From: Zygnema cylindricum
Lineage: Eukaryota > Streptophyta > Zygnematophyceae > Zygnematales > Zygnemataceae
Reading direction: 5' to 3'
NCBI GenBank assembly: GCA_037447655.1
Contig: JBBHKE010000573.1
Location: 285,332 to 349,331 of the forward strand
Length of the DNA: 64,000 nt
Shown here: positions 2,593 through 62,165 of the stretch, one piece after another
How the letters are laid out: every line of letters starts with the position of its first letter
Numbering within the stretch: the stretch's first letter is position 1
The notes under the pieces: model-generated
What the model was told of the DNA's origin: nothing
Database searches by the model: none
The model's input: only the letters and a program-made list of their open reading frames with translations
Program-made: the position numbers and the translations under genes

Positions 2593-3485
2593 TGTTGAAA
2601 TTGGAAATCTTTAATTATTAGATAGAGTTGTGAGGAGGAATTAAGAACTTAGAAAATTTTGGGAAATGAAAACCTGTAATACTTACCTCAAATAGTGTTA
2701 CATTAATAAAAGACTAAAAGTGTGTACTGTATAGCCAGTTGAACGCGCGTTGGTAGGTAAAGGGTGTTACAAGTTTCACGGAGTAGCGCCGATGACCAAT
2801 TACACGTGTCGCGAGAATAATGAGGGGATTGATAAAATCGGACGAACGGAACACAAACCGTATATCTGGAAATATATGGTACCGTCAACCAAGAAGGGCC
2901 GTTGATTGACATCAAATTAACGGACGCAATTCAGAAGGGACCACAAATGACGAAGCACACTTGGACGGTATCAAGTGCTTCGTACTATACGACAACAGTC
3001 AGCCGAATGCTATGGACCACTATTGACTAAGCGCCAAGAATATTTTATGTACGGTCTACTATTTGTAAATATTTGGATACAAGGATTTGTTGTTTAGCTA
3101 ATTTAAAATAGTGTCGCACTATTCATATTTAGAGAAATGGCAAAATTAGGTTTTGGAAGTACTCTTTGAATAGTAAGTACAGTTTTAGTACTTTGTCGTA
3201 GCATAAGACAGTAATGTAGTACAGTCACTTAAATTAGTGTGATTAGTAGATACTCACTGTGAGTATAGTTTAGGACTTAGACTAATTGTCATCATCGAAG
3301 TCTTGGGATATTAATAAACTAAGGCAGTTTTTGTGAATCTGCAGTGTGAATATCTTATGGTTGACTAGATCAATTGAATTGAATCTTTGAGGAGTTATTC
3401 TACACTGTGTTTACTATTGTTATGTAGAATTTGAGTCTACATAGATGACTGAGTTGCATTCTCTTACATCTTGAAGTTGGCTGTT
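2593..3485 (+). mobile_element. LTR of the first copia element (right edge approximate)
   Basis: It starts TGTTGAAA right after the polypurine tract. The right edge is inferred from the leader and gag start that follow at 3486-3578, which match the leader and gag start on the minus strand at 63169. The segment holds no ORF worth calling. Pol lies on its left and a gag start on its right, so this single LTR seems shared by two element bodies. I could not find a clear CA end, so the boundary may be off by tens of bases. Confidence 0.5.
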
Positions 3486-3578
3486 GAGTAGGGTGCTTGA
3501 TAGCTTCTGTTTTACATGTCTCCTTCCACTACTACTGCTTTTGGCTCACCTCTTTCTACTCTGGTTGTTGAACAACAT
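3486..3578 (+). pseudogene. leader and first ~20 codons of a copia-type gag
   Basis: After the leader motif GCTTGATAGCTTC, an ATG at 3516 opens MSPSTTTAFGSPLSTLVVEQ. The minus-strand ATG at 63167-63169 opens MSTSTTTAAPPPAPVVVEQ after the same leader motif, so both look like the start of one gag family. The coding sequence stops being recognisable at about 3578, where the polypyrimidine tract begins. The match between the two copies is my own by-eye alignment. Confidence 0.5.
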
Positions 3579-6500
3579 CCCTCTCCCACTTCCTCCCTCC
3601 CTCCCTCTCCCTATCCCTCTCCATCTCACGGTGGTCCCTCTTTATTTTAGTACCCCTTTCCTACTCACTCCCTTCCTTTCTTCCTCTCCCTCTCCTTGTA
3701 CGTTTCTCTCTCCCTCTCCCTCTCCATCTTTTTCTCCTTCTCCCTCTTTTTTTTCAACCCCCTCTCCCTCTATCTCTCTTTTCCTTTTTTTTTCCTCTCT
3801 TTCCACCCTTTCCCACCTGCTCCGAGGACGAATTTCTCTACCTATCTGTCTTAACTTCTTCTCCCCCTTTTCTTGTCCCTCACCATCCTCTCTTTTCTCC
3901 CTATTTTTCTCCTCTACTCTCTTTCTCCCTTTTTATTTTATGCATCCGACTCCCTCGTCCTCCTCCTCTCTTACTCATGATTAATATGCCTCACCGTCTC
4001 CCTTCCCTCCCTCTTTCGCTCTTGTACCCTAGTCCTTTTTCCTCTCCACTCCCTCCTCTCCTCCCTTTCATTCTCATTTTCTTTCTCACTCTCCTCCTCT
4101 TCTTTTTCACCCTCTACCTTTCCCTCTAACTCTCTCTCTCCTTCTTCTTGTTCTTCTCCAGTTCCCTCTCTCTCTCCCTCTCTTAACCATTCAAACTCTA
4201 TTACTCCCTCTCCCTCTCTCTCTTACTAACATCCCCTATGTCTCGCCCTCCTCTTTTCTTTCCTCTAATCTGTGCCCTGTCGCTCAATTTTTTCCCTCTT
4301 CCTCTCCCTCTCCCTCGCCTTTCCCTCTTTCTTTTCCTCCGCGTTTTTTTACCACTTTAGCTCCCATTTCTTCTGCCTTCTTTTTTCCACTCCCTCTTCT
4401 CTGCCAACTTCCCTGGCCTCTCTCTCTTTATATACTTCTCCCTCTTTTTTGCTCTCACCCTCTCTGTTTATCTCTCCCATCGCTTTTACCTTGTATCTTG
4501 ACGTCTTAATTTTTCATCTCTACTTTTCCGTCCCAATCATTGCCCTCCCTCATTCCCTCGATCCCCGTCACTTTTTTTCTCCTATCCTTCTCCTTTCCCT
4601 CTGAGGCGTGTCGTCCTCGGGCCCAACATGCTCTCAGATTTTCTCTCTCTCGTTCTACCACTCTCTCTCTCCCCTTTTCCCTCTCCCTCTGCCTCTTTTT
4701 TTCCCTCCCTCTCACTTTTGCTTCCTCGACACTCTCTCCCCCGTCGATCTTCACCCTCTCCCTTTCGTTCTCTTCAACCCTCTCACTCTCTCCTCCTCTC
4801 CCTCTCACGCTTCCTTTTCCTCTTTCACTTTCTTCTCCTTTCCTTCGTCTTCTCCCTCTCTCTCTACCTATATCTTCACTTATTTCTCTCCCCTTCCATT
4901 CACCTCTCCCATCTCTCATTTTTTTTGATCTCCCTCTCTTTTGCCGTTTCCCTCTCCTTGAACCTTTTTCCTTCTCTCTCCTTCTCCCTCTCTTTTTGCA
5001 TAGGAATAGCAAAAACTAAAAGAAGACAAAAGAGGGAAAGAGCAGAGGGAAGGGAGACGACAATGTAGAGGGGACCTCCTCTTTTTATTCTCATCCCTCT
5101 GATCCTTCTTCCTCTCCCCTTTCCTCTCCCACTCCCTTTCTTCTCACTCACAATTTCTCCATCTCCCCCAACTTTTACCTCTGTTTACCCATTCCTCTTT
5201 CTCTCCCTGTTCCTCTCCTTCTCCTCTCCCTTGCCTTCTTTCTCAACCACTTTATTTTTCTCCCTCACGATCTCCCTCTATACCCTCTCCCTATCCTTAC
5301 ATCGCTCTTTCTTCCACTCCCTCTCCACTCTCTCTCCCACGCCCACTTCCCCCTTTGCTCTTCCTTTTACTCTTCCACTCTCTTTCCCTCGCGCTCTGCC
5401 TCTCTCTTACCTCCTTCCCTCTCTCCTATCCCTCTCCCCATGCCATATCCTCTATCCTCTTCTTGCCCTCCCTTATGACCTCTATTTCACCCTCTCCATC
5501 CCCCTCTCCCTCTCTCTCTCCCTCTTTCTCTCACTAACCTTATCCCTCTCCTTCTCGCTCTCACCCTTTCTCTCCTTTTTCCACCCTCATTCCGTCTCCT
5601 CTTTTTTTCGTTCTCCCTCTCCATCTCTCATCTTCTACCTTTCTCCCGTTCTTTCCTTCTTGTTCTCCTTTTCATTCTCCCTCTTCTTTTCCCTCTACCT
5701 CTCCCTCTTATTTTCCCTCTCTCTCTACCTCCCTCCTTTTCCCCCTCCCTTTCCTTTTTGTTCTCTTTTTCTTTTTCACTCTCCTTCTCCCTCTGCCTCT
5801 CCCTCACATTTTCCCTATCGCTCCCCTTATCCTCTCCCTCTCCCTACCTCTCTCTTTCTTTTTTTCCCTACCTCTCTCTTTCTTTTTTTCCCTACCTCTT
5901 GCTCTCTATCTTTCTCCTTTTCTCCCTCTCCCTCTCCTCTCTTGCTCCCACTCCTTCTCCTACTCCGAACCCCCTTAATCTCTTTTCAACTTTCCCTCTC
6001 CCTTTTCCAATTTTCTTTCTTTTTTCTTATGCCTAACTCTCTTCGTCTTCCTCTCCCTCTCCTTTTTTATTTGCGTCTTCGTCTTCCACTCATATTCCCT
6101 CTGCCTCTCCTTTTCCCTCTCCCCCTCCTCCCTCTCTCTCTCCCTCTTCTTTATCCTATACCTCGTTATTTCCCTCCCTATCGTAATTGGCCTTTTCTTT
6201 CTCTTAGCGCCTCCATCTCTCACCATTTCCCTCTATCTCTCCCGCGTCTCTCCTCTTCGTTTTCCTACATCCTTTCGCTCTAATATTTTACTCCTCCAGT
6301 ATCTTTCCCTTTCCCTCTCCCTCTTCCCTTGCCATCTCCCTTTCCCCTTTTTTTCCCTCTACCTATTACACCTCACACCTCATATTTTTGGCACTCTTCC
6401 CCCCTCTTTCCCCTCCTCTCCCCCTTTATTCCCCTTTCCCACTATCTTTCCCTTTTCTTCTCCCTCTTCCTATCCTCCGTGCCCTCTACCTTTCCGAAAA

Positions 6501-7390
6501 TCCCACTGCTTTCTTCCCTCTTTCCCCTCCACACTCTTCTTGTCCTTCTCCATTTCCCTCTCCATTTTCATTGGGCACTCCCATTCTTTTTCCCTTTCCT
6601 TTTCCCATTTCCATTTCCCCTCCCTCTCCCCCCCAATCTCCTTTCATTCGCCCTCTCTTTTTCCATCTCCCTCCATCTATCCATCTTATTTTTTCTTTAT
6701 ATCTCCTTATCCCTATCTATATTAATTTTCCACCCTCTCTTGCTTTCCCTCTCTCTCCTCCTCTCCATCTCCTTCTTTTTCTCCCTCTGCCACACCTCCT
6801 CGACTCTTTCTCACCTCTCCTTCTCTCCGTCGCCACTTTCCTCACCCCGTCTTCTCCCGTCTCCCCCTCTCTCTCCCTCTCTTTCTCCCTTTCACGTGCT
6901 TTTTATTTAACCCTCTTCCTCCCTCTCCCTCTCAATCTCCTTCTCTTGTTCTCTCTCCCTCTTGTCCTTTCTTTTATACTCCCGCCCCCTCTCCCTCTCT
7001 CTCTACCTCCTCCCTCTTCCTCCATCTACATTTTCCTCTCCCCCTCTCTCGCCCTATCTCCCCTTCCTTTTGGCCCTCCTTTCCCTCTCACTCTCATTTT
7101 TTCTCTTCCACTCTTACTTCTTTTCTCATATCGTATTCCCTCTCTCATTTCCTCCTCGTTTTTTACCAATCTAACTCGCCTTTTTTCTGCCCTATTTTTC
7201 CTTCTCCCTCTCCCTCGCCATCTTTGCGGCCCTCTCTTTCTTGTTCTACTTCTCCCGCATCCTCTCCCTCTTTGTTTTTCTCCACCTTATTTCACGTATC
7301 CTGCCCCCGCCTTACCTTTTCACCACTACTTCTATACCCATATCGTTGCCCTCTCTCACTCCCTCATCCCCCATCTCCCTCGCCTTCTTT
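3579..7390 (+). repeat. 3.8 kb polypyrimidine (C/T) tract
   Basis: The plus strand is almost only C and T, built from drifting CCCTCTCC, CTCTCC and TTTTTC words with scattered A and G. Long open frames cross it in several frames at once and encode only Ser, Pro, Leu and Phe; they are composition artefacts, not genes. Short perfect duplications exist, for example a CTACCTCTCTCTTTC unit repeated near 5850-5895. One purine-rich island lies at about 5000-5078. Homopyrimidine tracts can form triplex (H-DNA) structures; whether this one does is unknown. Confidence 0.95.
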
Positions 7391-7651
7391 GAAAAATCTC
7401 CTTGGCAATTGCACTCCCGCTAACCCGATGAATTTGAGGAATGTGTTCTAGGTTCACATTGTCTGGGCTATATAGTTAGTGAGTGTCGTCCGGACTATAA
7501 AGTGTGTGCTGTAATTTTGTCCCAGTGACATACATGCTACCAAACTTATCCCATGTTAGGAAGCCCAACCGAACGCTCTGTAAGGTTCCATGGGAGGCTG
7601 ACCACAGTATTCATGTTCGTTACCGTGAGACTCTTCATGTCATCAACAAAG
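7391..7651. other. unique-looking sequence, nothing recognised
   Basis: Mixed-composition DNA between the polypyrimidine tract and a MITE relic. I see no ORF, RNA gene or clear repeat. Confidence 0.5.
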
Positions 7652-15773: not shown

Positions 15774-16232
15774 TTGAAAATCTAATGCTTCTCGTGAATC
15801 CCGGGTCTTTTCACAAGTTTCCATTTCATTGAACGGCCAAAGTCGTTGGTATAACCAAATCAGAAATGATGCGCATAATAAAAACAAAAATTAGTACTCC
15901 TACGCGATTATGCAGCAAAGTTTTCAAGCATTGACAAAAATTTGATTGTTAACATTCATCAAAAAATTTTGCGGTCCTCCTTAGTAAATTCTGATGGCGT
16001 AAAGATAATATTGTTGTCATATATATGTAGAAATATGCACACATGACGTCACTTCTAAGTAAAAGGGTGTGCCAATATAACCGATACTTCGAAGTGTTGC
16101 TGTGTATTTTATTGGCGATTCTACGTACTACTTTGAAGAGCATTCGAATGGGCAAAATTGGAACCGTTACTCTGAAATGTGACAAGTTTAGAAGAGTATT
16201 AAACTTGTGACAACTGGTGACATCTACAAAAA
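15774..16232. other. no recognised feature
   Basis: Flanking DNA of the copia element; minus-strand frames here run into the LTR and are not supported. Confidence 0.4.
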
Positions 16233-16810
16233 TGTTACGATTCATTGGAAGAATCGTATGCGCACGGAATGGGTTCAATTTCGCGAAGAACTGTAATTTT
16301 TGAATGTATAGAAAGTACATTCACGTAGGTTTTTCGTATAAGTACTAGTATGTTTGTTTCGCGAAACATTTGTCGTTTCGCGTCTAGAATTGTCGTACAT
16401 CTAGTTTAGTACAATAATACTTTTAGATTTGTCTAGTACTTTCGTTTTGGTTTGTCGTTTTGCAATGTTTGAGTCTTTAGTGAAATTTAGAACGTTCTAG
16501 CTTTATCTGCGGACAGGTGGCAGATTTCTAGAGGTTTCTTGGCGGCACACGCTTACACATGCCACGCCATGGCTAGTGTATTATTTAAGGGAAACCATGG
16601 ACTTGTGTAAAATCAATCAACGATCAATTGGAGATATATATATATGGAGGAATAGAAGAGATAGAAGAGAAATTGTAATTTCGGTTTTGTATTAATGTGA
16701 GAATTATTTTAAAATGTCTCTTCAATGTTGATTCAATGTTTTGTAATCTGAATGCTTCTGCTGCAATAATTATTCGTTAGTGAGCTATGAGTTTATTATC
16801 GATCCTTTCA
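16233..16810 (+). mobile_element. 5' LTR (578 bp)
   Basis: Starts TGTTACGATTC and ends GATCCTTTCA directly before the primer site. A TATA-like TATTATTTAAGG lies at about 16579-16590 and is also present in the 3' LTR, so transcription probably starts near 16610. The start contains an inverted GATTC/GAATC pair. It differs from the 3' LTR by scattered substitutions and small indels. Confidence 0.9.
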
Positions 16811-16812
16811 TT

Positions 16813-16824
16813 TGGTATCGGAGC
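16813..16824 (+). other. primer binding site, initiator tRNA-Met type
   Basis: TGGTATCGGAGC two bases after the LTR end matches the usual plant copia primer site TGGTATCAGAGC except for one base. It fixes the LTR edge and the element's orientation. Confidence 0.85.
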
Positions 16825-16857
16825 GGGTAGAGCTCTGTTGTAGTGTCTCCTTTGGGT

Positions 16858-18741
16858 ATGGGGGGAAGGAATAAAAAGAAGTCCCTTTTCACTCCCTCCT
16901 CTTCAGCTACCCCTGTTTCTAATTTTTGGGAAAATTTGCCGACTCCCGAGGATCCTCCTAAAGAAGAGAAAGAGTTCAGTTTTACCGGAGCCGCATTTGA
17001 GTCATCATTCCCCACGGATTCACTTGATCAAAATAGAGGTGTCGGTGGCTCGATGTCCGACAATCAAATGCGAGAGTATTTGGAGAATTTCATGCGTCGG
17101 ATTGATGAGAAATTCTCGGCCGTGGATAAGAGGTTTAATGAATTAGCTCACGGTGAGCCGGATCCTGATCCGGATGGAGGAGATTCCGATGATAGTGATG
17201 GGGAGGCAAAGAAAGTGAAAGATAAGAGGGGGAAATTTAAGCTTGATGACGATTCCGATTTAGAAGAAGATAGTCAAGGAGGAGTGGAAATGTTTCAGAT
17301 GCCCGGAAAGACCGTCGTATTCAATGGATCGAATTACCCTTCGTGGAAGAAATATATTCGAGCTCAATTGATTTTGAGAGGCCTTTGGAAGGTCGTCAAT
17401 GGAGAAGAGAAAATGCCGGTTGGAGATGCGAAGGCTCGTCGGTTGTGGAAGCGAAAGAATCTTGCGGCCATCACCGGATTAATGCAAACGTGTTCGGTGT
17501 CCGTGCATGATCATTTCCTCACGCATAGCACCGCACACGGATGTTGGAAGGCGTTGGAATCCCAATTTGAGAGGGGAATCCAAAACAAGGGGCAATATGT
17601 GTTTTCCGATTTCATGCAATTCAAAATGAAATCCAACGAATCTTTTGACGATGCCGTGAAGAGATTCAATATTATTGTGGAGCAACTTCTTAACAATGGG
17701 AGAGTGATCACGGAGGAGGACAAAGTAACCGGATTTTTGAATGCGTTACCGGATAAGTGGATCCACCTCAAGGAGATTTTACTTGCGAGGGAAAATAACA
17801 CTTACGAATTTATTGTGCATTATTTGAAGATGGCAGAGAGTAATCGTATCATTTCCTCAAAAGGATCTTTGGGCGTTGGATCTTTGAATGTGACCGCTCC
17901 CGAATTCGCGGATTTGCATTATTTTCGTGGAAGAGGGGGTGGAAAAGGAGGAGGATCAAGAGGTCGTGGAAAATGGCAAGATAAGAGCAGAAATCTAAGA
18001 CCTCGATCCGTCCAGAATGATAATAGCAACGTCTTGTGTTTCCGTTGCAATCCGCTCGGTCATATTTAGGCCTCTTGTCCGGTTAAAGAGAGAGAATGCT
18101 TCAATTGTGGGAAATCAGGCCATACGAGCCAGCAATGCTATTCTAAATTTAGTAGCGGAGGAGTAAGAGGCGGTCGCAGTTTTGGAGGTCGTGGCCGCGG
18201 ACGTGACAATGGTCGTGGTCGTGGACGCTATGGCGGCCATGGCGGAAGCCATGGAAATTTCGTCGACTTGGGAAATTCGGAAGGAGGCGAACGAGGACAA
18301 ACGTTCACTTGTCTCCACCTCACTATTGATTCACTAAGTGACGCACGCGATGATGCACGCGAAAAGGAGTGGATTATTGACACGAGAGCGTCTCACCACG
18401 TGTGTACGGACACTATATTGTTTGACGACATGCGTTCACTTACCGTACCAAAATTAATTATGGTCGCAAGTGGACAAACTATCACGGTTGGTACCGTGGT
18501 TACCGTTCGTTTAAATCTACCCACGTGGGACCGTTTTGGAAATGAAGCTATTTCGGAGGCGCGTCTATTGAACGTCTTTTATATTCCGGACGGTTCAGTC
18601 AACTTGCTAAGTGTACCTCAAATTCAGCGTGTCGGTGGAAACGTAATCGCTAGAGGTGATTCGGCGATTCCCATATATCGCACCGACGGCAAATTAATCG
18701 GCGAAGGCGAAGTCACCAATTCGATGCATAGTCGACTTTAA
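16858..18741 (+). pseudogene. copia gag-protease, one stop from an open frame
   Basis: ATG at 16858 (MGGRNKKKSLFTP) opens Gag. An upstream in-frame GTG at 16843 is not a likely eukaryotic start. Capsid motifs NYPSWKKYIRAQLILRGLW and HGCWKALESQFERG are typical of copia. Two zinc knuckles follow: CFRCNPLGHI-stop-ASC, interrupted by TAG at 18067-18069, and an intact CFNCGKSGHTSQQC. A Gly/Arg-rich tail leads in the same frame to the protease WIIDTRASHHV, where the usual D-T/S-G-A catalytic triplet has Arg in place of Gly. The frame ends at TAA 18739-18741. Both the stop and the active-site change would inactivate it. Confidence 0.92.
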
Positions 18742-18802
18742 TGGAGGCGACCGAAGAAGAATGATCCTTCCACGGGTATTCTAAATCAAATATCGGAATT
18801 AA

Positions 18803-19837
18803 ATGGGAGATTTAACGTTATGGCACCAGCGGATGTGTCATACATCCGAAGGAAATTTGAGGAGAATGATGAAAACGCCATATGTGAGAGGATTGGATCT
18901 TGCTACCAGTGAAAAAGTAAATGGATGCGATGGATGTAGTCAAGTACGACAAATTCGCAAACCACATCCTACGAAAGATGTGAAATTTCGGGCTCAACAT
19001 CCATTGGAGCTTGTCCATGTCGATCTATGTGGACAAATTAAGCCGGAAAGCCTAAGAGGAAATCGATATATTATGGTCATCGTTGAAGATTATTCGAGAT
19101 TTTCATGGGTGCGATTATTGAAGAGGAAATCGGATGCTCTTGAAACTTTTATTGAGTGGCATGCATTTGCCGAGAGACAATGCGAACGGAAATTGAAAGC
19201 GATTCGTTTGGATAATGGAGGCGAATTTATAGCATTTGAGAGGTATTGTAAGGAGAAAAGAATTACCCAACAATTCACTTCACCTTATTCTCCAGAATCG
19301 AATGGAGTAGCCGAAAGGAAGAATAGGACCTTACAAGAAATGGTGAGGGCGATGCTGCATTCGGCCGGTCTAAGTATCTCATTATGGGGAGATGCCATCC
19401 TCACGGCCAATTAAATTTGTAATCGGAGACTTACTTCAGTTTCCGGTGATAAAACACCATTCGAATTAATTTATGGGCGGAAACCGGCTCTCCATCATCT
19501 CCGAATTTGGGGATGTCGCGCTACGGTGTATGTGGATCAAGTGAAAAAGAAAGGAAAATTTGCGGCGAGGAGTTGGCCCGGAATATTTGTGGGCTATAGT
19601 ACAAAAGTAAATCTTTACCGTGTATTTGATCCGGTTCATCGCATTGTGGAAGAATCCCGAAATGTCAATTTTCATGAAGACTTAAAATCGGTTATTGAAA
19701 AATCGGCGGAATTGAAGAAGAATCTTGATTTTTTTGAGGTAGACGATGTTGCCAATTTCCCGGACATTGAGGATTCGGATTCGGATAAGGAGTCGGAATC
19801 CATCGTCAACATCAAGAAGGAAAAAACCAAATGTTGA
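18803..19837 (+). pseudogene. copia integrase with one internal stop
   Basis: Frame 2 relative to gag-protease, so a frame change precedes it. WHQRMCH and CDGC form the zinc module. The catalytic core shows VHVDLCG, IRLDNGGEF and GVAERKNRT. The spacing from the second Asp to the Glu of GVAE is two residues shorter than usual in copia (33 instead of 35 intervening residues by my count). TAA at 19412-19414 replaces the residue after LTAN; the frame continues through KTPFELIYGRKP and the C-terminal SWPGIFVGYS to 19837, where another frame change leads to the RT linker. Confidence 0.9.
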
Positions 19838-20469
19838 TTCGCGCTCGGAGAAATTGGACATTGACATAGATGTTCGGAGTAATGCAAGCCGAAATTCCAA
19901 AATGTCGACGGAAAGTCAAAAATCTTCAAGCTCAAAATCGAGTTTGACGAATGTGGACAAGGAGGAGAAAAATGTGGAACAAGTTCCGGTTCTTAGATGG
20001 AGTACTCGAGAGACTAAAGGAAAGAAACCAAATCGGCTTTCTTATGACAAAATTGGTGGAGAGAATTCAAATTCCCATTATTTCGTCTCCGATGCGAAGG
20101 AGACGGAATTCCTTTTATAGCAATTAATGTGCGAGAATTTGGCCGGCGATCCTCAATCATACACGGAGGCGTGGAACTCGTGTGATTGGGAAACGAAGTG
20201 GAATCCGGCATGGGAGGAGTATAAGTCAATTGTAGAAAATCGGACATTTGAGGAAGTAAAATTACCGGAAGGAAATAAAGCGATTGACCCAAAATGGGTC
20301 TTCAAAACGCAAACTGGTGCATCGGGTGAAGTAGTAAAATATAAGGCGAGACTTGTATGCAAAGGATTTCAGCAAAGCGAGGTGGTAGATTACACAAAGA
20401 CATATGCTCCCGTTGTGAAATTCAACTCTCTAAAGATGATTAGGGCGATTGCCGCTGCAAGGAAGAAAC
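19838..20469 (+). pseudogene. copia RT, N-terminal half
   Basis: Frame 3. An acidic/Ser-rich linker (TESQKSSSSKSS, RWSTRETKGKKPNRLSYDK) ends at TAG 20118-20120. The RT entry follows: WETKWNPAWEEYKSIVENRT, NKAIDPKWVFKTQ, YKARLVCKGFQQ, YAPVVKFNSLKMIRAIAAARKK. The frame is cut at 20469 by a solo LTR and resumes at 21369. Confidence 0.9.
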
Positions 20470-21363
20470 TGTTGAAAAGAGGTAATTAAATAGTTTACTT
20501 CTCTATTTTAGTTTTACTTTAAAGAGAGAGAGAGAGTGAGGATCAAAGGTACGCCATGGCTGCCGCCATATTTGGAAAGTGGCAGAATTTGAAGTTGAAG
20601 ATATTTAACCAAAATGTTGCCTACGTCGAGATTTTGAACATGGGTCTGTGGTTCACAATGTAGACGACAGCCTTATCCACTAAGGAATTACCGAAACGAT
20701 ACACGTGACGGATTTCAAAAATATATAAATATTAACTCAACGGCTAATTAACACCAACTTAACGAAGATGAACAATTCATGCACGTACGCGAATCTGAAC
20801 CGTGTAAAATATGTTTTGATCAGACGGCCAGCATTGTAGCCGCCACTCGAAGTGAGCTTTTGGCGACATTTGGAGATTGCGTCACGCGGTGCCACGTGGG
20901 GCCGCATTATTTGATACTGGAGAAGATGGGAGGAGGAACCATGGCTCCCGATTTGAGAGGTGTCACCTTGTAAACCATGTCGTACAATAGACGTACAATA
21001 AGTACATCGCCCATTGTACCTTCTTCTGCTATAAAGTGTTTCTATTGGACTAGGGTTTAGTAGTAGGTAGTCGTGAGTAGGCAGATCAAGACTTAGTGAT
21101 ATTTAGGTACCTCTCTCTAAGAGAGCTTGTAAATATAAATGTCATATTTGACCAGCCATAACTTACTGCTCAAGGGAGCAAATTCAATGATTCTTTTTGC
21201 GTTTGACTCAAAGGAGTCTTGTCCTCACACGGATGAGGGTGGTCAGAATATGTGTGTGCCTGGGCGGCACTTATTCAGTGGGAAAGTGGAAGGGGCAAAT
21301 ATTATCCAAGAGGCTTTACATAGGCTGCTCATTCTGTGGGTCAATAGAGACCACATAATTTCA
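20470..21363 (+). mobile_element. solo LTR, family A (894 bp), inserted in copia RT
   Basis: Begins TGTTGAAA and ends AATTTCA. GAAAC directly before (20465-20469) is repeated directly after (21364-21368). Removing one GAAAC plus the LTR joins RAIAAARKK to HVHQMDVENTF in frame, the exact continuity of copia RT. It is therefore a solo LTR left by LTR-LTR recombination after an insertion. Other family-A LTRs are at 27567-28619, 35171-36174 and 52348-53219. It contains a tRNA-like segment on the opposite strand (20618-20692). Small frames inside are not genes. Confidence 0.93.
20618..20692 (-). other. degenerate tRNA-like segment inside solo LTR A
   Basis: On the minus strand: TTAGTGGATAAGGC (D-arm like, three of four D-stem pairs), a TTGTGAA loop resembling a His anticodon loop, and GTTCAAAATC (B-box like). 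The anticodon and acceptor stems do not pair well. A tRNA-like segment also lies opposite the LTR sense in the LTR at 35171-36174. Confidence 0.4.
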
Positions 21364-21368
21364 GAAAC

Positions 21369-22076
21369 ACGTTCATCAAATGGATGTGGAGAACACGTTT
21401 TTAAATGGAGACTTAGAAAAAGAGGTCTATATGAAGGTGCCAAAAGGAGTGACGTCACAGGAAGGCATGGTATGGCGTCTTCGCAAATCGCTCTACGGAT
21501 TGAAGCAGGCGCCTCGCACTTGGTATCTACGCCTACACAAAGTTCTTTTGGACTTTGGTTTCACACGTACGATTTCGGATTCTGGAGTGTACGTGAAAGG
21601 ACAAGGAACGGATCAAATTATATTTTCAGTGTACGTCGATGATTTCTTGATGACGTCATATAGTTTGGAACGTATAGGCGAATTGGAAGCGTACCTGCGT
21701 CAACATTTCAAAGTCACAAATCTTGGCGAAGTAAAATATATTTTGGTGATCGAAGTGATTCGTAATGCGAACGTAGACATAAAGTTATCTGGCGCAATAT
21801 TGTAAGGAGGTATTAGCGCGATTTTCCATGTTGGACGCAAAACCAGTTTCAACGCTTATGGACGCGAAAAGTCAATTACGAAAGTTCGAGGAAGAAGCGA
21901 CGCTAGACGTACCGTACCGCGAAGTGATTGGGAGCTTAATGTACCTAAGTGTTGGTACGCTGCCCGATATTTCGGCGGCCGTTTCAATTATAATCGATAT
22001 TGTCAAGCGCCAAAGAAATCGCATTGGGAGGCCGTCTAAGTCAGTTGTGGAAAATCGGGCATTTGAGTTTACATGA
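21369..22076 (+). pseudogene. copia RT, C-terminal half
   Basis: Resumes with HVHQMDVENTFLNGDLEKEVYM, SLYGLKQAPRTWYLRL and the catalytic YVDDFLM. The first frame ends at TAA 21803-21805. A frame change leads to MLDAKPVSTLMDAK, YREVIGSLMYLSVGTLPDISAAVS. A second change near 22005 turns the expected PKKSHWEAV into other residues. RNase H is not recognisable, so about 0.4 kb of the pol 3' end was deleted or scrambled. Confidence 0.9.
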
Positions 22077-22322
22077 ACCGATCATATGGCGACGTGCCAT
22101 GTGGTGAAGGCATGAATATTTCATGAGAAAGAGTTTTCAGTTTGAGGAATGTTTAAATTGAAATCGGCGGTAACCTTTATGTTTAACAGTGGGCGACCAC
22201 GGAAAGAGTTTGTTACACCTTGTGACGATTCTCCCAATACGAGGGGGATGTTGGATATTGAAAGAATCGGCCGTGAGTTTAGGAATTTATTTTGGTTGTA
22301 GTGGGATTCGACGATTTTTCAA

Positions 22323-22335
22323 TGAAGTGGGGGAA
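22323..22335 (+). other. polypurine tract
   Basis: TGAAGTGGGGGAA directly before TGTTAAGATTC marks the 3' LTR start. Confidence 0.75.
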
Positions 22336-22911
22336 TGTTAAGATTCATTGAAAGAATCGTACGCACGCGGAATCAGTTAGATTTCGCGAAAGAAAAACTG
22401 TACTTTCTAGAATGTACCGAAAGTATAGTTACGTGTATTTAGATAAAGTTCTAGTTGTTCGCGAAATATATTTGTTGTTTCGTTTCGCGTCTAGATTGTT
22501 GTAAGTCTAATTTAGTACGATAGTACTTCTAGTTTTGTGTAGTACTTTCGTCCAAGCTTGTCGTTTTGCTATGTTTCAGCCCTTAGTAAAATTTAGAGTA
22601 TTCTAGGTTAATTTGCGGACAAGTGGCAGATTTATGGAGGCTTGTTGACGGCGCACGCTCACACGTGTCACGCCATGGCTGGTATTGTATTTAAAGGGAC
22701 ACCATGACTGTGTGTTAATCAATCAATGAGGAATTGGAGGATTATATGGAGTAATAGAATAGATAGAGAAGAAATTGTAATTTCAGTTTTATATTAATGT
22801 GAGAATTTTTTGAAATGTCTCATCAATGTTGATTTAATGTTTTATAATCTGAATGCATCTGCTGCTATAAGTGTTTGTAAGTGAGCTCAGATTTTTTTAT
22901 CGATCCTTTCA
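22336..22911 (+). mobile_element. 3' LTR (576 bp)
   Basis: Homologous along its whole length to 16233-16810. Starts TGTTAAGATTC and ends ATCGATCCTTTCA. The next base begins the GGGAGGA array. Confidence 0.9.
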
Positions 22912-60943: not shown

Positions 60944-61093
60944 CATAGTTCAAAAGTAGGTGAAAGTAGGCCGATACAATATGCCTATTGAATGCAAAAC
61001 ATACAATATGGCCTTAAAAACTATATTGTATTGGTCGAAAAAAAAAATGTAGTGACAGGGTTGAGTTGCACATCGATCGACAGAGAATTAAAC

Positions 61094-61321
61094 TGTTGAT
61101 TTCCGTGAAATACGGGATTTGGTATGTCCCATAACAGGGAAAAGTGAGCCGGCCATGGCTAAAACCTAGGACCTCTGCCTTGAGCTGTCACCACACCAAC
61201 CACTGTGCCACCAGCTCGATGTAGAGCCTGGCGGGTCCGTACCTAATTTTTTAGGCGGCTTTGAGTGTGACGTATCACATTCTACCACGTATTGAACCGA
61301 CATTCATGTGCCAATCCAACA
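61094..61321 (-). mobile_element. TRIM 3' LTR (228 bp)
   Basis: Minus strand TGTTGGATTGG start and ATCAACA end. Contains a diverged tRNA-like segment (61146-61217). Confidence 0.88.
61146..61217 (-). pseudogene. diverged tRNA-like segment in TRIM 3' LTR
   Basis: Same layout as 61431-61502. The acceptor and D stems still pair; the T-loop has changed from TTCGAGC to TTTTAGC, damaging the B-box. Confidence 0.55.
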
Positions 61322-61378
61322 CCCCCCCCCATGAGAAGGTCGGTCACACCATCCGCAATCCCATTGGCTACGATACCA
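61322..61378 (-). other. TRIM internal region: primer site and polypurine tract
   Basis: 57 bp. On the minus strand it starts TGGTATCGTAGCC (61366-61378) and ends with ATGGGGGGGGG (61322-61332). No coding capacity. Confidence 0.85.
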
Positions 61379-61607
61379 TGTTGATTTTCGTGAAATCCGG
61401 GATTCGGTATGTCCCATACTAGGGAAAAGTGAGCCGGCCAGGGCTCGAACCTAGGACCTCTGACTTGAGCTGTCAACGCACTAACCACTGTGCCACCAGC
61501 TCGATATAGAGCCTGGCGGGTCCGTACATATTTTTTTTATGCGGCTTCGAGTGTGACGTATCACATTCTACCCAGTATTGAACCGACATTCACGTGCATA
61601 TCCAACA
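61379..61607 (-). mobile_element. TRIM 5' LTR (229 bp)
   Basis: Minus strand TGTTGGATATG start, ATCAACA end; a few percent different from the other LTR by eye, with the better-preserved tRNA-like segment. Confidence 0.88.
61431..61502 (-). tRNA. complete tRNA-like cloverleaf inside TRIM LTR
   Basis: Hand folding of the 72 nt gives a 7-bp acceptor (GAGCTGG/CCGGCTC, one G-U), a 4-bp D-stem (GCAC/GTGC) with AGTGGTTA loop, a 5-bp anticodon stem (TTGAC/GTCAG), and a 5-bp T-stem (CTAGG/CCTGG) with TTCGAGC loop. A-box and B-box promoter positions are present. The anticodon loop AGCTCAA has G at position 33 instead of U, so a translating tRNA is unlikely; the nominal anticodon would be CTC. It is in the same orientation as the TRIM. 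Confidence 0.6.
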
Positions 61608-62165
61608 TAAACGTCATGTTTAAATTTTGAAAAACATTTGGACAAAATAATAATTATGTGAGTTTTGAGGTATTTTTTATTTAAACCGTCAGATTTGGAC
61701 GATCGGACGGTTGTTAATCAAAGTAGCGATCTAAGAAGATCACATGAAAAGCCCATAACACAACTCATCCTACGCTGTGTCAGTTCGCTTAAAATTTCGG
61801 TTTGCGGCGTGCGCTTACTATGATCATACGTCAGATTCGTACGTTCGTACAAAAGTGTGCACAAACGCACACACATACAGTATGCCTACTCTGCGCGAGT
61901 TTTGTGCCAAGTTTTGTGCGCCTACTAAAGGCCTACCATAAAAACTTCTACTTTTGAACTATGATCCGTCTGGATGATGAGATACACATCAATCCTTATG
62001 GTGATGTCCGTTGAATTTCCGGACAGTAGATCATGTACTTTTTTTGTGTAAAACTTTAGATGTCGTACATATTGAAGCTTCCACCTTTAAATTTGACCAA
62101 GTCCACAAATTTCCCCCTCACAGCCTTCAGTTCTAAACGTCCGAAACAAACTGACCAACAGACGG

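Follow-up and report, generated by a model that had tools for sequence, protein, structure and literature searches.

The window, by which we mean the whole 64,000-nucleotide stretch of DNA analysed here, contains on its minus strand a gene-less TRIM retrotransposon with a tRNA-like segment in both of its LTRs (Table 1). The LTR and interior lengths and the TAAAC target-site duplication (TSD) that an earlier note on this DNA had given proved exact by coordinates and sequence, the poly-G polypurine tract (PPT) that it had reported is the G-run adjoining the 3' LTR, and the ORF list holds no open reading frame of at least 150 amino acids within the element. The primer-binding site (PBS), described there as of tRNA-Met type, reads TGGTATCGTAGCC and is mutated in the window copy; the commonest forms elsewhere in the family, TGGTATC[AG]GAGCCA, which we take to match the 3' end of plant initiator tRNA-Met, bear out that description. 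As the two LTRs of the window copy are merely 90.4% identical, this is an old insertion.

Table 1. Features of the TRIM element, in positions of the 64-kb window.
Feature	Position	Strand	Basis
TRIM, gene-less, 514 bp	61094-61607	minus	LTR-interior-LTR with TSDs
5' LTR, 229 bp	61379..61607	minus	TG...CA ends; outer flank is the TSD
Interior, 57 bp, no gene	61322..61378	minus	ORF list
3' LTR, 228 bp	61094..61321	minus	TG...CA ends; 90.4% identity to 5' LTR
Primer-binding site, initiator-tRNA-Met type, mutated in window copy	61365..61378	minus	commonest family forms TGGTATC[AG]GAGCCA
Polypurine tract, G-run adjoining 3' LTR	61322..61330	minus	sequence
Target-site duplication TAAAC, two sides	61089..61093 and 61608..61612	.	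sequence
tRNA-like segment, 5' LTR, LTR positions 106-178	61430..61502	minus	Rfam, ARAGORN; all 21 stem pairs formed
A-box region, segment positions 8-19	61484..61495	minus	standard tRNA numbering
B-box region, segment positions 52-62	61441..61451	minus	standard tRNA numbering
TTTT directly 3' of 5' LTR tRNA-like segment, possible weak Pol III terminator	61425..61428	minus	sequence
Decayed tRNA-like segment, 3' LTR	61145..61217	minus	sequence comparison; no Rfam match
TTTT after 3' LTR tRNA-like segment	61140..61143	minus	sequence

The segment in the 5' LTR matches the Rfam tRNA model RF00005 (49.4 bits, E 1.5e-7, gathering score 29), and this covariance-model match, a check that the earlier note had proposed, is the sole gathering-level Rfam match within the 64 kb. 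Using ARAGORN, the same segment is called as a tRNA-Glu CTC, and the fold into four tRNA stems claimed for the better copy, in the element's own orientation, is complete on the minus strand, with 21 of 21 pairs formed. The A-box and B-box regions were placed by standard tRNA numbering, which we assume to apply to the segment. Its counterpart in the 3' LTR gives no Rfam tRNA match, even at E ≤ 10. In the scanned copies of the family ARAGORN calls Glu-CTC for one subfamily (A) and Gln-CTG for the other (B), with the exception of one Ser call. Position 33 is a G in 91 of the 100 LTRs of the first set described below and, with U33 absent, the segment is probably no working tRNA.

Searching the genome for other copies, as had been suggested, showed that the window TRIM belongs to a many-copy, recently active family. 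The exact interior 22-mer occurs 148 times genome-wide, against one occurrence of its reversed control, and the genome of the window (352.8 Mb) holds at least 50 matches to the element, at least 66 to the LTR and at least 40 to the tRNA segment alone, all of them lower bounds since 40 were scored of 893, 878 and 1049 candidates, respectively. Fetched copies yielded 115 LTR matches, from which 15 partial ones were dropped; the remaining 100 near-complete LTRs, our first set, were collected for their similarity to the window copy and are mostly of subfamily A, with at least three B-type LTRs. They form 57 chains, namely 34 with two LTRs, 19 single LTRs (some being half-elements, the rest lying beyond the fetched stretch or lost to the length filter), 3 triples and 1 quadruple tandem. 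A perfect 5-bp TSD flanks 23 of these chains (18/34 two-LTR, 4/19 single, 1/3 triple, 0/1 quadruple); none ended at 4 bp, and one three-LTR chain ended at 3 bp. The PBS and PPT adjoin the LTRs in family copies, both in the first set and in the B loci. One fetched locus carries an exact 1148-bp repeat with a whole TRIM inside (L067, 1-1148 and 6754-7901), which is either a recent duplication or an assembly artefact.

The family can be divided into two main subfamilies, A, which includes the window copy, and B, which was found through a divergent LTR in locus L077; intermediate or mixed A/B LTRs are also present. A search with the B LTR returned at least 84 matches, mostly at 97-98% identity (40 scored of 974 candidates). 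In 20 fetched loci we counted 46 B LTR spans, one of which (in L109) is a truncated LTR with its end extended over its neighbour, and 20 of the 46 are letter-identical. Perfect 5-bp TSDs occur in 15 of the 20 loci, and the outer LTRs are identical in 6 of the 19 multi-LTR loci, which together with the letter-identical spans indicates that B is young; by its LTR divergence the window copy is the older. Tandem arrays are found in L097 (3 LTRs), L108 (5 LTRs) and L109 (irregular). Rfam tRNA matches in the B loci range from 33.7 to 56.9 bits, 31 of the 41 scoring 53.6 bits.

Copies chosen by their LTRs could not tell whether the module is a constant part of the LTR, and we therefore also sampled 40 of the loci listed for the interior 22-mer (one of them, L123, overlaps the earlier L017), that is, 80 LTR sides, each scored as tRNA-positive if BLAST with an A or B LTR covered at least 70% of the tRNA region. 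The tRNA region is present in 66 of the 80 sides, while 8 are truncated (the rearranged upstream LTR of L123 being counted here) and 6 have no LTR match; the 74 matching sides divide into 62 nearer B and 12 nearer A. The earlier note had reasoned that LTR copies lacking the segment would reveal a chance insertion, and no such copy appeared: no side among the 80 retains both LTR ends but lacks the tRNA region. The same loci give 39 gathering-level Rfam tRNA matches, the best at 58.1 bits. This top score among the scanned copies belongs to a 3' LTR whose tRNA segment lies about 85 bases beyond its usual place (L112, 510-581). Overlong segments of 120 and 110 bases were seen at L074 (368-487), where the D-to-anticodon piece is present three times, and at L084 (431-540).

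From this anatomy we think it likely that the element is a TRIM of the published Helenus kind (compared below) that is transcribed by Pol III from the segment of its 5' LTR, uses the tRNA-like segment as R, is primed by tRNA-Met and borrows its enzyme. Pol III would be brought in with TFIIIC by the A and B boxes and would begin transcribing at the tRNA-like segment in the 5' LTR. The TTTT behind that segment would act as a weak terminator, often read through, so that the read-through RNA would continue across the PBS, interior, PPT and U3 as far as the TTTT of the 3' LTR. This RNA would carry the tRNA-like segment at either end, as an R repeat of about 75-80 nt for strand transfer, and initiator tRNA-Met would prime its reverse transcription. 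5-bp TSDs fit Copia integrases, and this TSD length and the Met primer site make a Copia element the most likely source of the enzyme, which would be supplied in trans. A link between 5-bp TSDs and Copia is reported for fungal Helenus in the available excerpts of Kojima 2024 (PMC10886601).

A TTTT follows the segment by 1-2 bases in 93 of the 100 first-set LTRs and in 44 of the 46 B spans, whereas 0.38 T4 runs are expected per shuffled LTR. In four intact elements (three B, one A) the two runs directly after the tRNA segments are the sole T4 runs; the window element has one more. The excerpted part of a study in yeast, an organism other than the present host, describes T4 alone as a weak terminator, Pol III release being helped by RNA structure that lies no more than about 7 nt upstream (PMC9278858). 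The T4 after the 5' segment should keep many Pol III transcripts from reaching the primer site, and read-through is assumed in our scheme.

Once inserted, copies decay neutrally, as expected. In the first set, G-C stem transitions that keep and that break pairing are equal in number (59:59), and over 77 distinct segments they stand at 56 to 59; among all single changes in the stems, 69 keep pairing and 118 break it, and the tRNA region is 95.3% conserved against 94.0 and 94.1% in its flanks. Pairing-keeping double changes number 14 in this set, against 6.4 in column shuffles (0/1000 as high), with many of them coming from few related B-type or old rows.

Between the subfamilies, where one real A LTR was compared with one real B LTR, the flanks differ at 26 of 156 sites; for the tRNA, with the anticodon arm set aside, the figure is 1 of 54, and one D-loop base is deleted as well (Fisher 0.004). 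The acceptor stem, which contains neither promoter box, is unchanged (0/14). The anticodon arm differs at 6 of 17 sites, and the five changed sites of its stem leave 5 of 5 pairs intact, two by double change: C-G became T-A, G-C became C-G, and A-T became G-T, the last being G-C in two LTRs of L108. Five random substitutions keep five anticodon pairs in 0.9-3.9% of trials. That pairs are kept between the subfamilies in a stem without a promoter box is a moderate hint of selection on RNA structure. The earlier note had looked to compensatory changes for support of its cloverleaf, and to a lack of stem conservation for evidence against it: the first are seen in the anticodon stem between A and B, while the second describes the inserted copies and not the comparison between subfamilies.

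Covariation was also scored on two alignments, in both of which relatedness among rows inflates the scores. In a set of 34 segments (33 of 37 distinct segments, four with deletions being left out, and the window copy), the covariation score was reached by 2 of 500 shuffles and the number of double-change cells by 7 of 500, while the number of double-change pairs was ordinary (205/500 shuffles as high). Across 13 hand-picked LTRs, with the cloverleaf and two U3 helices taken together, the score was 0.167 against 0.119 in shuffles (sd 0.010; 0/500) and fell to 0.065 or less when the pairs were slid. The folding energy of the isolated segment is ordinary (z -0.66 for B, -1.13 for A), and the minimum-energy fold is the cloverleaf for the B segment and not for the A segment. 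A hairpin in U3 (LTR 43-56, window 61565-61552) has arms that differ between A and B yet are paired in both (TGTGA/TCACA and ATGGA/TCCAT); among the 13 rows it has at least five pairs in 11, three pairs in one and none in one, and the agreement of its arms could reflect RNA structure, a DNA dyad or perfection of an inverted repeat by template switching. A structured LTR as a whole was considered, with z at -4.17 (one B LTR) and -2.97 (one A LTR), and is not claimed because its sub-regions are inconsistent: four copies gave -2.98, -1.37, +1.12 and -1.15 for U3 alone, and the values for U5 alone were -0.43 and 0.05.

These data bear differently on what the segment does. It may be a promoter only, its cloverleaf a relic kept because the A and B boxes sit in the D and T arms, and the agreement in the anticodon stem the product of chance or of conversion with another tRNA-like sequence. 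To this reading we give about an even chance: the balance of G-C transitions, the excess of pairing-breaking single changes, the absent U33 and the ordinary folding energy all agree with it, and the rate at which random substitutions keep the five anticodon pairs is non-negligible, although it leaves aside the unchanged, box-free acceptor stem, five anticodon-stem changes that keep every pair (with the third pair G-C in L108) and the excess of double changes over shuffles, most of which lie in few related rows. Another reading, in which Pol II transcribes the LTR, as it does in ordinary TRIMs, and the segment is a passenger left from a former SINE or tRNA insertion, seems to us unlikely. The excerpts of Kojima's paper do propose SINE insertion into a TRIM LTR as an origin (PMC10886601), and Pol III use is read here from anatomy; such a passenger would however sit poorly with tRNA sites outside the anticodon arm that are more conserved between subfamilies than the flanks, and with 80 LTR sides none of which has both ends but no segment.

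The cloverleaf may instead act as RNA and be selected for its pairing, as an aid to termination at the TTTT, as protection or positioning of the RNA ends, or as a recognition element in reverse transcription or packaging. We hold this as a tentative possibility, in keeping with the covariation of the 13 rows, the kept anticodon-stem pairs and the G-C pair of L108, the cloverleaf as the minimum-energy fold of B, and the help that structure near T4 gives to Pol III release in yeast (PMC9278858, excerpts). Its evidence is essentially one A-to-B comparison and covariation in hand-picked, related rows; on the 34 rows the double-change pairs are ordinary despite the scores for covariation and cells, and the A segment prefers another fold. 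A fuller version, about which we are rather doubtful, would make the cloverleaf a selected RNA structure at both ends of the genomic RNA, as R, that aids the stop at a weak and passable TTTT, its box-free anticodon stem having been rebuilt in a compensatory way between subfamilies, with a U3 hairpin that likewise changes on both sides. The near-identical natural copies are material in which RNA analysis could settle both the Pol III promoter claim made for Helenus and how a Pol III terminator inside an LTR is passed.

A search for an autonomous partner identified none. One candidate, a Copia LTR abutting the TRIM primer site and interior at C1618 (L075, L089), was first read as a recombinant. 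Among 40 scored of 2494 candidates, the other full genome matches to the C1618 stretch stop at query 141-156, no more than 8 bases from the LTR end (148), and of eight Copia LTR ends that we fetched, two (L151, L158) continue with GGTTATGGGCCCACC and six run into differing sequence. We take GGTTATGGGCCCACC to pair with the anticodon arm of initiator tRNA and not with its 3' end. Because the matches end at or near the LTR end and the primer site seems to differ, the claim of a Copia partner was dropped, and L075, L089, L115 and L135 are better read as truncated 5' LTRs beside Copia LTRs. The Copia LTR family of L089, with 2494 candidates at first look, also occurs in the window (20782-21362) and seems to have an anticodon-arm primer site in 2 of 8 ends (L151, L158).

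The window itself contains a Copia element (16231-22911) with LTRs at 16231-16810 and 22334-22911 that are 80% identical, and with gag and integrase ORFs. A Copia-type LTR of another family, the one at about 20782-21362, lies inside it. The primer site of this element, TGGTATCGGAGC, is of the same primer type as that of the TRIM, and no likeness to the TRIM beyond primer-site type was noticed. Elsewhere in the window, a long CT-rich low-complexity tract (3475-7451) gives overlapping Ser/Pro/Leu-rich open frames in several frames. A protein search with one window ORF returned no match at E ≤ 0.001.

Among known systems, the earlier note had compared the element to Cassandra, with a tRNA-like module in place of 5S, and the comparison stands: the module is present in both LTRs in the same orientation, and other copies keep it. 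Cassandra, the 5S-containing TRIM counterpart of plants in the excerpted source (PMC10853983), is likewise a TRIM with a small-RNA promoter module in its LTRs, a Met primer site and tandem arrays, but its module is 5S, and neither the window nor the scanned family copies gave a gathering-level Rfam match to 5S rRNA. In the excerpts of Gao 2016, TRIMs of 129 plant subfamilies occur in tandem, and other TRIM families are reported to lack 5S (PMC4717578). The tRNA-like Pol III head is shared with tRNA-derived SINEs, from which the present family differs in its LTR pairs, PBS, PPT and fixed 5-bp TSD, as opposed to target-primed insertion. Retrozymes, as far as their partial descriptions go, are also small, gene-less, non-autonomous LTR elements of plants with a functional RNA module in the LTRs; theirs are hammerhead ribozymes, whereas Rfam gives no gathering-level ribozyme match here.

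In the open-licence literature, outside which subscription papers lie, and in the excerpts it offered, tRNA-in-LTR TRIMs appear only in Kojima 2024 (PMC10886601) and in a mention in a meeting report (PMC12859917). According to those excerpts, Kojima gave the name Helenus to TRIMs with tRNA-derived sequence in their LTRs, known from fungi, animals and one plant, Selaginella moellendorffii, with TSDs of 5 bp in fungi and plants and 4 bp in animals; Pol III use was proposed and called unproven, and the predicted tRNA structures, whose isotypes disagree in tRNAscan-SE, were said with few exceptions not to support tRNA function (PMC10886601). The present elements have two LTRs around a short gene-less interior, a tRNA segment in the LTRs, a PBS and PPT, and 5-bp TSDs, and thus form a new family of the Helenus kind, matched to it by described features. 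Their likeness extends, within the excerpts, to TRIM length (311-1263 bp in Helenus), to A and B boxes within the tRNA-like LTR sequence, to tandem arrays as in LTR-11_DR and probably to the expectation that mostly no working tRNA is encoded.

To the one plant in the excerpted table of Kojima the family adds a further Helenus, recently active and high in copy number, from a genome with 18S sequence of green-plant type. A pattern for green-plant-type 18S matched this genome twice, once exactly and once with 1 mismatch, and a pattern for the animal/fungus type gave 0 matches; taken with the primer site, this suggests that the host is a green plant or alga. The two 18S-like copies (L159, L160) look diverged or broken, and the assembly may lack or mask the proper rDNA. 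In a genome of this sort many tRNA predictions (Glu-CTC, Gln-CTG) could be retrotransposon ends. What appears to be new here is the family and, from comparison of its sequences, a hint of selected RNA structure: a young, high-copy family with an intact cloverleaf would go beyond a routine addition in offering a testable sign that the fold, besides the promoter, matters. Set beside the Selaginella moellendorffii family as excerpted, in which the LTR and interior measure 120 and 85 bp, the present one has an LTR of 229 bp and an interior of 57 bp, and it differs from Helenus further in the complete cloverleaf of its young copies and in having two subfamilies with compensatory changes in the anticodon stem.
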